From Hoylesella marshii DSM 16973 = JCM 13450 (GTDB taxonomy: Bacteria; Bacteroidota; Bacteroidia; Bacteroidales; Bacteroidaceae), in assembly GCF_000146675.1 (NCBI RefSeq), contig NZ_GL397214.1, positions 1,681,347 through 1,745,346 on the forward strand: a stretch of DNA of 64,000 nucleotides. Reading direction: 5' to 3'. The notes beneath the pieces are model-generated. The model ran no database searches, was not told the origin of the DNA, and saw only the letters and a list, made by a program, of their open reading frames with translations. Below are positions 10,691 through 47,084 of the stretch, one piece after another; the first letter of the stretch is position 1, and every line of letters starts with the position of its first letter. The position numbers and the translations under genes are program-made.

Positions 10691-11131
10691 AAAGCAAAGT
10701 GTCCGGACATCGGAAAGGCACGACGAAGAAGCACTCCGACAGCTTGTGACGGATTTCCTTACAAGCAGTTCCTTCATCGGTGCTTACGCATTGAAATACA
10801 GCAAGATAGCAGAGCGTTTCTAAGAGCTATCCTTTTAGCGTGCCAAACGATAGCTCTTATCACGTCAAAGCTATGCTTTGAAAGCGTCAGAGCATAGCTT
10901 TTGATATTTGAGAGGTAAGCACCTGAGGTACAAAAGAGATTAAAGTCAAGTCAGCGCCTTGGGTAAATGGTGCAAAAAAGGTGAGTGCTGAAGACGCGAA
11001 AGACCCTTTTCTTTCATTTTCAAATAGATGTTTGATAAAAATGTATCGCACTTACAGCGCTCCATTTAGGGGAACATCATATACCCAGCGCTATGCGCTG
11101 GGCTGACATCTTACGCTCTTTCAGAGCTTAC
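10691..11131 (+). repeat. Inverted repeat arm A1 (441 bp)
   Basis: This segment matches the reverse complement of 27331-27771 over its whole 441 bp, with equal length and roughly 90-95% identity by eye. Positions correspond as x and 38462 minus x. It starts in AAAGCAAAGTGTCCGGACAT, includes the four-unit 22-bp array, and ends after the palindrome CCCAGCGCTATGCGCTGGG and an ACGCTC...GAGC module. The two arms enclose 16.2 kb. Confidence 0.85.
10822..10909 (+). repeat. 22-bp-period array, four units
   Basis: Units start at 10822, 10844, 10866 and 10888. Cores include AAAGCTATGCTTT and AGAGCATAGCTTTT, variants of AAAGCNNNGCTTT. The array lies inside inverted repeat arm A1; its partner copy is 27553-27640. 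Confidence 0.8.
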
Positions 11132-11700
11132 TCCTGCTTTATAAGTGGGGAAAGTAAGGGACGGTGGAAATCGCAACTACATACCCTTGATGATTGAAAG
11201 GTAAGCGCTGGAGGTGCGTAAGCTGTCAGCCCAAGGCATCGCCTTGGGTAGAGAAAATGCCAAGCGCTGAAACGAAGTTCGCCGTGCGAAGCAAAGGCAA
11301 AGTGCGAAAGACCATTTTCTTTCATTTTCAAATAGATGTTTGATAAAGATGTGTCGCACTTACAGCGCTCCATTTAGGGGAACATCATATACCCAGCGCT
11401 ATGCGCTGGGCTGATATATTACGCTCCTTCAGAGCTTACTCCTGCTTTATGAGTGGGGAAAGTAAGGGACGGTGGAAATCTCGACTATATGTTTTTGATA
11501 ATCGAAAGGTAAGCGCTGTAAGCGCGAAACATGTCAGCCCAAGGCAACGCCTTGGGTAAGAGAACGCCACAAAATGGAGCGCTGTAAGTGCGATAGATAA
11601 TAGCCCAAGGCAACGCCTTGGGTAGAAAGGAGCAAAAAAGGTGAGCGCTGGAGGTGCGAAAGACCCTTTTATTTCATTCTATATAGATGCTTGATAAGGA
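11013..11700. repeat. Tandem duplication of about 308 bp with hairpin modules
   Basis: The segment beginning near 11013 (TTTCATTTTCAAATAGATG) and running through CCCAGCGCTATGCGCTGGG to GGGACGGTGGAAATC recurs about 308 bp downstream from near 11321 with few changes. Between and after the copies lie palindromes CCCAAGGCATCGCCTTGGG, CCCAAGGCAACGCCTTGGG (twice) and AGCGCTG...GCG hairpins. The part 11160-11425 is also the inverted counterpart of 26900-27170. Confidence 0.75.
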
Positions 11701-26908: not shown

Positions 26909-27170
26909 TAATATGTCAGCCCAGCGCATAGCGCTGGGTATAAGATATGCCCCCAAATGAAGCGCTGTAAGTGCGACACATCTTTATCAAACATCTATTT
27001 GAAAATGAAATAAAAAGGTCTTTCGCACTTTGCCTTTGCTTCGCACGGCGAACTTCGTTTCAGCGCTTAGCATTCTCTCTACCCAAGGCGTTGCCTTGGG
27101 CTAACATCTTACGCGCCTCCAGCGCTTGCCTTTCAATCATTAAAGGCATGTAGTCGAGATTTTCACCGCC
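26900..27170 (-). repeat. Inverted repeat arm B2
   Basis: About 270 bp whose reverse complement matches 11160-11425 at roughly 90% by eye. It contains the palindrome CCCAGCGCATAGCGCTGGG, a TTTGAAAATGAAAT segment, CGGCGAACTTCGTTTCAGCG and the palindrome CCCAAGGCGTTGCCTTGGG. The order relative to arm B1 mirrors that of A1 and A2 in block A. Confidence 0.75.
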
Positions 27171-27330
27171 CCATATTCGGTTCGCTCATGAGGCAGGAGT
27201 AAGTTCTAAAAGAGTATGATTGTGGGGCGTATCAACACCTTATTATAATGGTACGAAATGTAATGTAAGCGCTGCAAGCGCGTAAGATATCAGCCCAGCG
27301 CACAACACCGAGTAGATAACATTTCCTGAA

Positions 27331-27771
27331 GTAAGCTCTGCAAGAGCGTAAGATATCAGCCCAGCGCATAGCGCTGGGTATATGATGTTCCCCTAAATGG
27401 AGCGCTGTAAGTGCGATACATCCTTATCAAACATCTATTTGAAAGTGAAATAAAAGGGTCTTACGCGCCTTCAGCGCTCACCTTTTTTACACCATTTACC
27501 CAAGGTGCTGACTTGACCTTAATCTCTTTCGCGCCTCCGGTGCTTACCCCTCAATTATCAAAAGCTATGCTCTGACGCTTTCAAAGCATAGCTTTGACGT
27601 GATAAGAGCTATCGTTTGGCACGCTAAAAGGATAGCTTTTAGAAACGCTCTGCTATCTTGCTGTATTTCAATGCGTAAGCACCGATGGCGGAACCGCTTG
27701 TAAGGAAATCCGTCACAAACTGTCGGAGTGCTTCTTCGTTGTGCCTTTCCGATGTCCGGACACTTTGCTTT
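27331..27771 (-). repeat. Inverted repeat arm B1 (441 bp)
   Basis: Reverse-complement partner of 10691-11131 with identical length. It contains the palindrome CCCAGCGCATAGCGCTGGG and a four-unit 22-bp array at 27553-27640. Differences from A1 are scattered single-base changes. Confidence 0.85.
27553..27640 (-). repeat. 22-bp-period array, four units
   Basis: Mirror copy of the array at 10822-10909, with the same four units in reverse orientation and cores AAAGCTATGCTCTG, AAAGCATAGCTTT and variants. Confidence 0.8.
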
Positions 27772-27889: not shown

Positions 27890-29551
27890 TCAAGCAAAGA
27901 ACATCACGATAACCTGTGCAATAATCACGCGGATAAACATGCTCAACGGATAAACTGTGGCATAGCTCACGGAACTGCTGTCGCCTTTTATCGTCTCGTT
28001 GGCATAGCTCAATGCCATGGGATTAGCCATGGAACCGCAGAGTATTCCGCAAATCGTACCGTAGTCCATCCTGCGTGTTTTGAGTGCAATCAGACCTACA
28101 ATAAGTACGGGAACGACGGTGAGTAGGAAACCCAAGCCTATCCATAGCAGCCCCTCCGACCTGATAACGGTTTCAAAAAAGCCTCCTCCGGCTTCCAAAC
28201 CGAGGCACGCCAAATAAAGAGAAAGTCCGAGTTTACGCAACATCAGCGAAGCACTTCGGGTGGTGTAAGTAATCAAATGGAAACGTGGGCCAAAAGTTCC
28301 GACAAGTATTCCTACAAGAATAGGGCCTCCGGCAATGCCCAACCGCACAGGAACATCCATGCCCGGAATACTGATAGGGATGGTTCCGAGTGCCAGACCG
28401 AGGATGATTCCTATAAAGATAGCAGCCAGATTGGGTTCGTTGAGCGTTTGGACGGCATTACCGAGAAAGCCCTCTACGTTGTCAATGTCTTGCGGGGCAC
28501 CTACAACGGCCACGCGGTCTCCGTATTGCAAACGCAGGTCGGGTGTGGCCAGGAGCTTCACATCGCCTCGCATCACACGACTTACGTTCACACCATACGT
28601 ATGCCGGAGTTGCAGCTGACCCAAGAGTTTTCCATTGAGCTCGGTACGACTGATGACGAGCACCCTCGATTCCACCTTTGAGTCTATCGAATTCCAATCT
28701 ATTTGTTCGCGGTTCCAGTCTTTCTCCACCCTCTTTCCGAAGAGCAATGTCATGGCCTCTGCATCGTCTTTCGTAGTAACGACAAGTACACTGTCGTTCA
28801 GGTGTATATGGTTGGATGATATGGGTACAATCACTTGTCCGTCACGCCAGATGCGGGAGATGATAAACTTGAAATGCGTCATCTGCGAAATTTCGGCAAT
28901 CGTCTTCCCTGCGATAGCCGGATTGATGGCCACGAACTGTCCTACAAACGTATCATTCTCATTGCTGTCGCTCTTTGGTTCGAGGTCTTCGGGTTTCACG
29001 AAGAGTTTGCGCATCAACAAGATAGCAAGGATAACGCCCACAACACCCAACGGATAGGTAACGGCACATCCCAATGCGGCACCTCCCGTAGGAAGTCCCA
29101 AATGCTGAAGAGCTGATTGAGCAGCACCCAATGCCGGTGTGTTTGTCGTTGCTCCGCAAAGCAGTCCCATCATGTCGGGGATGCCTACCGAGGTAATCTG
29201 ACAAAGCAGCAGAGCTAAGAGTGTGCCAACCACAATCACGGCAACGCCCCATAGATTGAATTCTTTTCCCTCGTGCTTAAAGGCCGAAAAGAACGATGGC
29301 CCCACATGAAGTCCCAACGTATAGACAAAGAGTATCAATCCGAAATTCTCTGCATAATCCAGCATTTGGGCATCAATGCTGAGTCCCAAATGACCTGCGA
29401 GGATGCCGATAAAGAAGACAAAAGCAATTCCGAGCGAAACTCCGAAAATGCGAATCTTGCCTGCTGCTAATCCGACGGCACAGACCAGCGACAATATAAT
29501 GATAGTTTGAAGTGACGAATGCAGGCTGAACAAGCCCTCTAACCATGTCAT
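27890..29551 (-). CDS. YidE/AspT-type transporter with two RCK_C domains
   Basis: 553 aa. Two hydrophobic halves of five to six helices each flank a cytoplasmic centre with two TrkA/RCK C-terminal domains (about residues 195-285 and 290-375, for example VVPISSNHIHLNDSVLVV and LRLQYGDRVAVVGAP). The two membrane halves carry the internally repeated motifs GLLCGATTNTPALGAAQ and GILCGSMANPMALSYA. This is the aspartate-alanine exchanger family layout, and the substrate is unknown. Its upstream region is a 66-bp tandem repeat with a -7 box in each copy. Confidence 0.9.
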   Translation of the reverse strand: MTWLEGLFSLHSSLQTIIILSLVCAVGLAAGKIRIFGVSLGIAFVFFIGILAGHLGLSIDAQMLDYAENFGLILFVYTLGLHVGPSFFSAFKHEGKEFNLWGVAVIVVGTLLALLLCQITSVGIPDMMGLLCGATTNTPALGAAQSALQHLGLPTGGAALGCAVTYPLGVVGVILAILLMRKLFVKPEDLEPKSDSNENDTFVGQFVAINPAIAGKTIAEISQMTHFKFIISRIWRDGQVIVPISSNHIHLNDSVLVVTTKDDAEAMTLLFGKRVEKDWNREQIDWNSIDSKVESRVLVISRTELNGKLLGQLQLRHTYGVNVSRVMRGDVKLLATPDLRLQYGDRVAVVGAPQDIDNVEGFLGNAVQTLNEPNLAAIFIGIILGLALGTIPISIPGMDVPVRLGIAGGPILVGILVGTFGPRFHLITYTTRSASLMLRKLGLSLYLACLGLEAGGGFFETVIRSEGLLWIGLGFLLTVVPVLIVGLIALKTRRMDYGTICGILCGSMANPMALSYANETIKGDSSSVSYATVYPLSMFIRVIIAQVIVMFFA

Positions 29552-29637
29552 ATTTTTATTCTCTTTTTATGGCTTTTCCGAATAAATGCCATGAATCCCA
29601 CGAGAAACAACTCTCGACTGTCTGCATGCTACTTTCC

Positions 29638-29848
29638 TTATGCAAAGATAGTACAAGTGAATGCAATGAAAGCTCGCTTTCTGATTGCTGAACGCAGGCT
29701 ATCTTATGCAAAGATAGTACAAGTGAACGCAATGAAAGTTTACTTTCTGATTGCTGAACGCAGGCTATCTTATGCAAAGATAGTACAAGTGAATGCAATG
29801 AAAGTTTACTTTCTGATTGCTGAACGCAGGCTATCTTATGCAAAGGTA
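29638..29848 (-). repeat. 66-bp tandem repeat carrying promoter -7 boxes
   Basis: Three full 66-bp units (29638-29703, 29704-29769, 29770-29835) plus a 13-bp partial copy to 29848. Units differ at only a few positions. Read toward the transporter gene, each contains TATCTTTG (29643-29650, 29709-29716, 29775-29782), and the terminal partial copy has TACCTTTG (29841-29848), giving four possible -7 boxes. Each full unit also has a small GAAAG-N4-CTTTC hairpin. Confidence 0.85.
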
Positions 29849-30053: not shown

Positions 30054-30089
30054 AGAAGAGCCGGAGAAAAAAGTTTCTCCGGCTCTTCT
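30054..30089 (-). terminator. Terminator of rplM-rpsI-rpsB-tsf
   Basis: A perfect 16-bp stem AGAAGAGCCGGAGAAA/TTTCTCCGGCTCTTCT with a 4-nt loop. On the minus strand it is followed by TGTTTTC. It lies 25 bp beyond the tsf stop. Confidence 0.8.
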
Positions 30090-38630: not shown

Positions 38631-38718
38631 GAAAGCATAGCTTTTACACCCTGAAACCTTAGCTTTTATCGCGTGAAAGCATAGCTTTTAAAAGCTGAAA
38701 AGATAGCTGTTACAAACA
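38631..38718. repeat. 22-bp-period array, four units, between murG and murC
   Basis: Units start at 38631, 38653, 38675 and 38697. Two contain GAAAGCATAGCTTTTA exactly; the others are GAAACCTTAGCTTTTA and GAAAAGATAGCTGTTA. A degenerate fifth unit may precede (38609-38630). It is followed by a short GTAAGCGCC...GGCATCGCCCC remnant of the longer hairpin module. Confidence 0.8.
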
Positions 38719-46167: not shown

Positions 46168-46903
46168 ACCCCCTTTGTCTCCCTCGCAGTGCACCCATCG
46201 CCCCCTCTTTCCTTGAGTGCGGGATAATGATATTGGGGACATTAAGCCATGAAACGAAGCTCGCCGTGCAAAGCGAAACGGTCTGTCGCACTTACAGCGC
46301 TCACCTTTTTTGCTCCTTCTTACCCAAGGCGATGCCTTGGGCTGACATCTTACGCGCCTCCAGCGCTTTAGTTTGTAACATTGTTTTACCAAAAGCGTTA
46401 TCCACACCTATTGCCTTTCGCGTCTCCAGCGCTTCATTTTGTGACGTTCTTTTACCCATGGCGTTGCCTTGTGCTGACATGTTTCGCGCCTTTAACGCTT
46501 TAGTTTGTGACATTGTTTTACTAAAGGCGTTATCGGCAGTTATTACCTTACGCGTCTCCAATACTCGCCTTTTTTGCGTCTTTTTACCAAAGGTGCTACC
46601 TTAGACTGACAGCTTACGCGCCTTCAGCGCTTACCTTTCAATCATCAATGGCATGTCGTTGCGATTTCCACCGCCCTACATTTAACCGTTTATAAGATAA
46701 GAATAAGCGCTGTAAGCGCATAACATATCAGCCCAGCGCATGGCACCGAGTAGATGACACTTCCCTAAGTAAGCTCTGCAAGAGCGCAATATACCAGCCC
46801 AGCGCATAGCGCTGGGTATAGGACATGCCCCTAAATGGAGCGCTGTAAGTGCGACACATCGTTATCAAACATCGACTTGGAAAGAAATAAAAGGGTCGTC
46901 CGC

Positions 46904-46996: not shown

Positions 46997-47084
46997 CGAA
47001 AGCTATGGTATGAGGGTGTAAAAGCTATGCGTTGAGAGGATGAAAGCATAGCTTTAAGGGCGTAAAAGCTATGCTTTTACAAAC
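46997..47084. repeat. 22-bp-period array, four units
   Basis: Units start at 46997, 47019, 47041 and 47063, with cores GAAAGCTATGGTAT, AAAAGCTATGCGTT, GAAAGCATAGCTTT and AAAAGCTATGCTTTT. Confidence 0.8.

Follow-up and report, generated by a model that had tools for sequence, protein, structure and literature searches.

A 66-bp palindromic repeat, probably mobile, that appears to target promoter -7 boxes in Prevotella and related bacteria

The tandem array that stands in front of an AspT/YidE-type transporter gene in Hoylesella marshii DSM 16973 is, in our judgement, probably made of a mobile palindromic element that targets Bacteroidota -7 boxes and whose own end recreates the target. Its unit is dispersed, forms a palindrome with compensated changes, lies behind native promoters in Prevotella, turns over in number between sister species and, at two loci, can be compared as a filled and a precisely empty site. 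More tentatively, the element might take the primary sigma factor's -7 box as its target, carry another such box at its own end and move as a folded single strand via a recombinase; it would spare the host promoter, land always in register with transcription, stack in tandem and rewrite the leaders of unrelated housekeeping genes.

In the window (the whole stretch of DNA that was analysed, 64,000 nt), Tandem Repeats Finder places at 29637-29845 a repeat of period 66 with 3.2 copies and 96% matches, whose features are listed in Table 1; the start codon of the transporter is at 29551. A preliminary description of this DNA had reported three tandem 66-bp units, each with a -7 box, in front of a YidE/AspT-type transporter, and the repeat search, the box positions and the Pfam domains bear this out; the 13-bp "stub" that it also reported corresponds to CATAAG plus the last box. 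The palindromic nature of the unit was absent from that description, and its recurrence elsewhere is not visible from one window. With up to 3 mismatches, the 19-mer CTATCTTTGCATAAGATAG occurs four times in the window, each time inside the array (0.01 expected from 100 shuffles), and the four window boxes all conform to TAnnTTTG, the -7 consensus of the Bacteroidota sigmaABfr promoter as quoted in PMC7366714. Unit 3 has GCGAGC at its tip where units 1 and 2 have GTAAAC, both sides of the tip pair having changed together. A 16-bp inverted repeat without mismatches, its loop four bases long, is located at 30054-30089, between the transporter gene and a gene that by eye resembles that of elongation factor Ts, whose terminator it may be.

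Table 1. Features of the array and of the transporter gene, in window positions
Feature	Position	Strand	Basis or reading
Outermost -7 box TACCTTTG	29841..29848	-	probable native promoter box and insertion target, from the family
Unit 1, 66 bp, palindromic hairpin, own TATCTTTG at end	29775..29840	-	covariance model match
Unit 2, 66 bp	29709..29774	-	covariance model match
Unit 3, 66 bp	29643..29708	-	covariance model match
Boxes TATCTTTG	29775-29782, 29709-29716, 29643-29650	-	toward transporter start
CATAAG beyond gene-proximal box	29637..29642	-	sequence
Leader, array to start codon, about 85 bases	29552..29636	-	sequence
AspT/YidE-type transporter, 553 aa	27890..29551	-	Pfam Asp-Al_Ex and TrkA_C, two stretches each

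Each unit reads as an imperfect palindrome. A first alignment started from 52 picked units; two of these (L014:271-344 and L042:1386-1456) proved false, and of the other 50 it took in 36. We drew a 22-pair structure by hand, in which standard pairs make up 89.8% of the cells. Both sides have changed in 16 of the 22 pairs, giving 79 double-changed cells, a level reached in 0 of 500 shuffles, and only four cells carry a one-sided change; the covariation score is 0.277, against at most 0.114 for slid structures, and additional kinds of pair are no more numerous than expected by chance (210 of 500 shuffles). Related sequences are not independent, so that covariation counts are not probabilities, and the conservation of the boxes in this alignment is partly there by construction, because the units were picked by requiring them. 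A set of 103 units (distinct, of fixed length, with at least 18 Watson-Crick pairs) yielded, over 23 pairs including the tip, 2203 Watson-Crick, 24 G.T, 67 A.C and 75 other cells; shuffles of this set hold about 167 G.T and 202 A.C cells, far more than observed for both. When the requirement was relaxed to 14 or more pairs, the resulting 126 units, counted over 22 pairs, yielded 2465 Watson-Crick, 43 G.T, 121 A.C and 143 other cells. The Watson-Crick cut-off favours Watson-Crick cells, not A.C over G.T. Paired double changes also separate adjacent units of one array: those of L022 differ by three such changes and by nothing else, and those of L132 by four paired double changes, zero one-sided ones and a few unpaired differences. 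Over all comparisons of units within arrays, two-sided changes affect 49 pairs and one-sided changes 68, and differences fall at 98 unpaired sites.

Two readings of such a sequence were set aside. A coding repeat seems less likely, because the sequence changes follow the pairing, even though 66 is a multiple of three and frames are open on both strands (our gene caller skipped any ORF that shared over 40 bases with an array). A known RNA family was rejected as well: scans of seven loci (E up to 1) and of the window (gathering threshold) returned no Rfam covariance match over the array or the units.

Another reading is a 5'-leader element, whose hairpins would act in the mRNA to control stability or translation. 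In Prevotella, the units come directly behind the native -7 box, which would start the stem at about +1, and the array folds as RNA with a z of -3.83, beating 200 of 200 shuffles; as DNA, it folds with the same z of -3.83 and again beats 200 of 200. However, sense-strand G.T cells are rarer than A.C cells (24 against 67), so wobble is not tolerated on that strand as an RNA hairpin would allow; covariation also extends to the pair across the 2-nt loop, Watson-Crick in 98 of the 103 units, which is not expected in RNA; and at loci of other families it is mostly the proximal box that resembles a promoter. We consider this explanation unlikely.

The preliminary description had proposed looking for the unit before other genes. 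In the own genome, a covariance model built from 36 units finds at least 20 units, spread over 12 places (E<=1.2e-4; 150 of 1432 candidates scored), and the neighbours of units, among ten loci scanned, include unrelated genes (UvrD-type helicase, M16, M3 and PAP2 proteins). BLASTn matches were obtained in 73 of 200 Prevotella genomes, the genus to which the named relatives of the transporter locus belong; in the order, 16 of 198 genomes, from 12 of 147 genera and own genome included, score with the model at E<=1e-4, with no match in two genomes that belong to the same family and another genus. The unit array of another genome matches two named plasmid-collection records, one of Segatella hominis and one, 1.77 Mb long, of Prevotella sp. 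oral taxon 299, as well as four unannotated faecal "Bacteriophage sp." records. A device specific to the transporter is out, since the model search found the unit in none of 31 distinct homologous transporter loci (33 loci, 4 + 29, were searched, and L009/L098 and L010/L110 are each one locus) and since the unit also precedes unrelated genes.

The 100 genus loci consist of 11 own-genome loci, 29 BLASTn loci and another 60 places without overlap, taken in order from the top of the BLASTn list, so that weak copies are under-sampled. We left out L059 (a near-duplicate of L058), L063 (E 0.8) and, as repeats of an array, L006, L007, L013 and L043-L056; L030 and L174 were counted as two arrays each, and are one each after extension. 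Once the matches are extended by similarity, 36, 42, 15, 6 and 5 of the 104 arrays hold one, two, three, four and five units, respectively. Units from different loci are slightly more alike within genomes than between them (means of 0.796 and 0.775; 3 of 2000 permutations as high), and the nearest neighbour of a unit is in the same genome in 29 of 83 cases, a likeness that fits local spread, if weakly. L058 and L059 are related regions of the own genome; in both, a single unit occupies the corresponding position next to a small gene, and the two genes are similar (that of L058 is of HTH_17/MerR type; L059 was judged by eye); units thus also ride on duplicated, probably mobile, DNA.

The orientation that the preliminary description had remarked on, with the boxes toward the gene, is that of the related Prevotella arrays: of 99, 91 have their box end toward the start of a gene and 8 toward the end of one (p 6e-19), and the opposite side of the arrays is split 52 to 50. 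In the order sample, 36 of 49 arrays have their boxes on the side of a gene start. Orientation was read from a simple ATG-ORF caller, which called no neighbour for 5 of 104 genus arrays and 3 of 52 order arrays. At L005 (1498-1720), a unit points away from an amidoligase gene; by eye, a second TACCTTTG box and hairpin lie about 100 bases on, and these could be the limits of a short transcript.

Does each unit, then, act as a promoter? The preliminary description read the units in this way, with the number of units possibly setting expression through multiple promoters, phase variation or level variation. Every unit of the window indeed ends in a gene-directed -7 box, the orientation bias and the fast change in unit number agree with the idea, and promoter elements are reported in BrickBuilt of P. 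gingivalis (PMC4596501). The boxes themselves do not bear it out. In the genus, 98 of 103 arrays have an exact outermost box, which is preceded by TTTG at spacing 19/20 in 27 of these 98, against 0 of the 67 exact gene-proximal boxes (out of 104 ends, 37 being without an exact box); with unextended model ends, the outermost box is exact in 95 of 103, with TTTG in 23 of 95, and the proximal one in 78 of 104 (26 without an exact box), with TTTG in 0 of 78. Control boxes outside arrays at the same loci have TTTG in 23 of 76 cases, which shows that the -33 element is not universal and limits the objection, and transporter promoters without an array have it in 11 of 18; the most frequent spacing of this -33 TTTG is 19-20. 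As the outermost boxes are like the controls and the proximal ones lack TTTG, the units appear to sit just behind a native -7 box and not to form three promoters, and promoter activity of every unit is, to our mind, improbable.

Judged by its letters and spacing, the outermost box of Prevotella arrays behaves like a native promoter. That of the window, suggested in the preliminary description to be perhaps ancestral, has no TTTG at spacing 17-21 and a single one at spacing 23; from the family pattern (the -33 spacing and the two empty sites described below), we read it as probably native. The transporter mRNA would probably start there and carry three hairpins in its 5' leader. At loci of other families of the order, the pattern differs: the distal box is exact in 16 of 52 arrays and the proximal one in 42 of 52, TTTG at N17-21 accompanies 4 of 16 distal and 9 of 42 proximal boxes, and the active box may be the proximal one.

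Two loci can be compared with and without a unit. L238 (genome G046) has one 66-bp unit where L312 in the sister G190 and L320 in the outgroup G029 have none; because the outgroup locus (about 73% identical) is empty, the unit at L238 is a gain. Upstream of this unit, the promoter of the empty site, TTTTG-N19-TATCTTTGCA, has been preserved unchanged, and a second TATCTTTGCA, belonging to the unit, forms the unit's end. At L259 (G131), compared with L330 (G145), a 67-bp insert has the native box TACTTTTGCA upstream and the element's TATTTTTGCA downstream, so that the junction falls within the common TTTTGCA. Both junctions share TTTGCA, which might be a target site duplication, although the element's own end carries these letters as well; both pairs fit insertion at the TTTGCA of a -7 box, the gain being polarised at L238 only. 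Short, dispersed, with terminal inverted repeats and with filled and empty sites in relatives, the element has several traits of a MITE. We found no relative with an empty site at the window's own locus, the closest homolog of the transporter sharing 73% of its protein sequence.

That the number of units is labile, as the preliminary description expected, was followed by counting repeats in sister species: of 25 orthologous arrays, 14 have unequal numbers. We used two sister pairs, G131/G145 and G190/G046, with one genome per species and array flanks 88-99% identical. For G131/G145, 4 of 11 arrays differ, by one unit each (L231/L240, L247/L306, L255/L252 and L259/L330), and the remaining 7 are equal in length within a base. 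For G190/G046, 10 of 14 differ and 3 are equal: the difference is one unit at L270/L305, L277/L301, L279/L292, L284/L175, L285/L295, L287/L293, L281/L298 and L312/L238, two units at L257/L294, and three units with further rearrangement at L275/L156; L280/L242 have one unit each, of different type, at the same promoter. Single-unit differences, measured by anchored flanks, amount to 63 to 69 bp. L275/L156 and L281/L298 were read by eye, and L231/L240 are the arrays of L016/L142. Excluded were L262, L269, L276, L303, L300 and L258 (no anchor in the fetched stretch), L232 (flank not found in G131) and L278 (cut through by a contig end); further G190/G046 loci have no partner among the fetched loci, and L233 matches G046 on one side only.

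Such turnover might be had without a dedicated enzyme, through copying driven by microhomology: native -7 boxes and unit ends share a short stretch, over which template switching or recombination would move units, and slippage would vary their number. The shortness of the stretch that target and unit have in common at both filled sites (TTTGCA and neighbours), the unit of different type at the same promoter in a sister species (L280/L242) and the predominance of single-unit differences all speak for it. Yet whole units of 66 and 67 bp at new sites, together with a structure that compensatory changes maintain and whose unpaired positions are conserved, suggest recognition by a protein, and copying leaves the upkeep of the palindrome unexplained; we would not expect this account to be the right one.

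Insertion of a mobile element at -7 boxes remains our preferred reading, mobility being inferred from the dispersal, the 31 transporter loci without a unit, the filled and empty pairs and the exchanged unit. A copy would enter at the TTTGCA of a primary-sigma -7 box, TAnnTTTGCA; the native -33/-7 promoter would stay upstream, and the 66-bp hairpin would lie at about the first transcribed base. The downstream end of the element, TAnnTTTGCA, would offer a new target with every insertion, and units would then be gained and lost, mostly singly. Because the target is asymmetric, the insert would be oriented by the promoter; because the element's end is again a target, head-to-tail arrays would form in one direction with a 66-bp period, their box side nearly always toward the gene start. 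Where one unit already stands, slippage rather than insertion could supply the next. Mobilisation would presumably rely on an enzyme, a recombinase or a transposase, that works on the DNA strand in its folded form.

One candidate for the enzyme is a Y1 (RAYT) transposase, of which the unit would be the REP. The unit is palindromic, dispersed and conserved in structure, and PMC6006769 describes a mostly-Bacteroidetes Y1 subclass whose atypical flanking structures recur in the genome. Nevertheless, Y1 transposase and element do not co-occur across genomes (20 of 200 genomes have both, from 73 and 67, with 24.5 expected; p 0.21), and a clear element lies beside a Y1 gene in 1 of 30 Y1 loci, the 30 being the loci returned by the search and not a survey of the subclass. 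A RAYT origin, supported by neither co-occurrence nor adjacency, is very unlikely.

The window holds other repeats. A second, different palindromic family, partly tandem with periods 66 and 132, is found at 10996-11663, 27082-27378 and 46320-46849, and scores as Rfam RF01687 (Acido-Lenti-1) at 8 window places. Elsewhere in the own genome, at L215 (C1 near 1594075), three RF01687 matches (2073-2676) lie beside the only Y1 match (E<=1e-10); this second family may thus be the REP of the genome's own Y1 transposase, an association seen at 1 of 16 Y1 loci scanned. At 38631-38715 and 46999-47077, 22-bp tandem repeats contain AAAGCATAGCTTT-like letters, which by eye are also present beside arrays in L002 and L003.

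If our preferred reading is true, a short repeat lands on the promoter itself, and gene-by-gene changes of leader structure are common in an abundant group of bacteria, with 10 of 14 orthologous arrays differing between two sister species as a measure of their frequency. Sitting behind start signals and changing in number between relatives, the element may re-tune many genes. Natural pairs, with 0 to 4 units before the same gene, are at hand for the effects of leader hairpins and stacked -7 boxes on expression, and the element offers a defined target for finding the mobilising enzyme.

Among the matches listed from open-licence PMC papers, the element was not found described; our results suggest a small mobile palindromic repeat, of a variant not found in the literature searched. 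CTnDOT, a large conjugative element, has with IntDOT the attachment core GTANNTTTGC, which resembles both the -7 box and the unit junction, a resemblance of letters only. Insertion of IS200/IS605 elements takes place on the 3' side of a tetranucleotide. As outlined in PMC6006769, this tetranucleotide is fixed; on paper, these elements are like ours in inserting beside a short, asymmetric target and in having folded ends. They differ in having two subterminal hairpins, against one in our unit, for which no transposase was found among the Y1 genes examined.

BrickBuilt is the nearest described case, with REP and Correia elements as looser parallels. REP/BIME sequences with Y1 (RAYT) are, like our unit, dispersed palindromes, some in tandem; however, as described in PMC3733652 and PMC6006769, REPs measure 20-40 bp and carry a GTAG or CGTC tag, and our element has no association with Y1. 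The Correia elements of Neisseria are likewise small, lie mostly immediately upstream of genes and carry promoters, but belong to another phylum, and the passages of PMC10969869 devoted to them mention neither 66-bp tandem arrays nor a promoter-box target. As for the BrickBuilt MITE of P. gingivalis, PMC4596501 describes a 23-nt unit, unlike our period of 66, repeated 1 to 22.8 times between a leader and a tail with TIRs; its passages on the element mention no -7 boxes and report no BLASTn match outside P. gingivalis, with strong matches of leader and tail in P. gulae. In the same passages of PMC4596501, BrickBuilt shares with our element its occurrence in Bacteroidales, the intergenic position, tandem units with predicted stem-loops, promoter elements, a unit number that varies between strains, and filled and empty sites.
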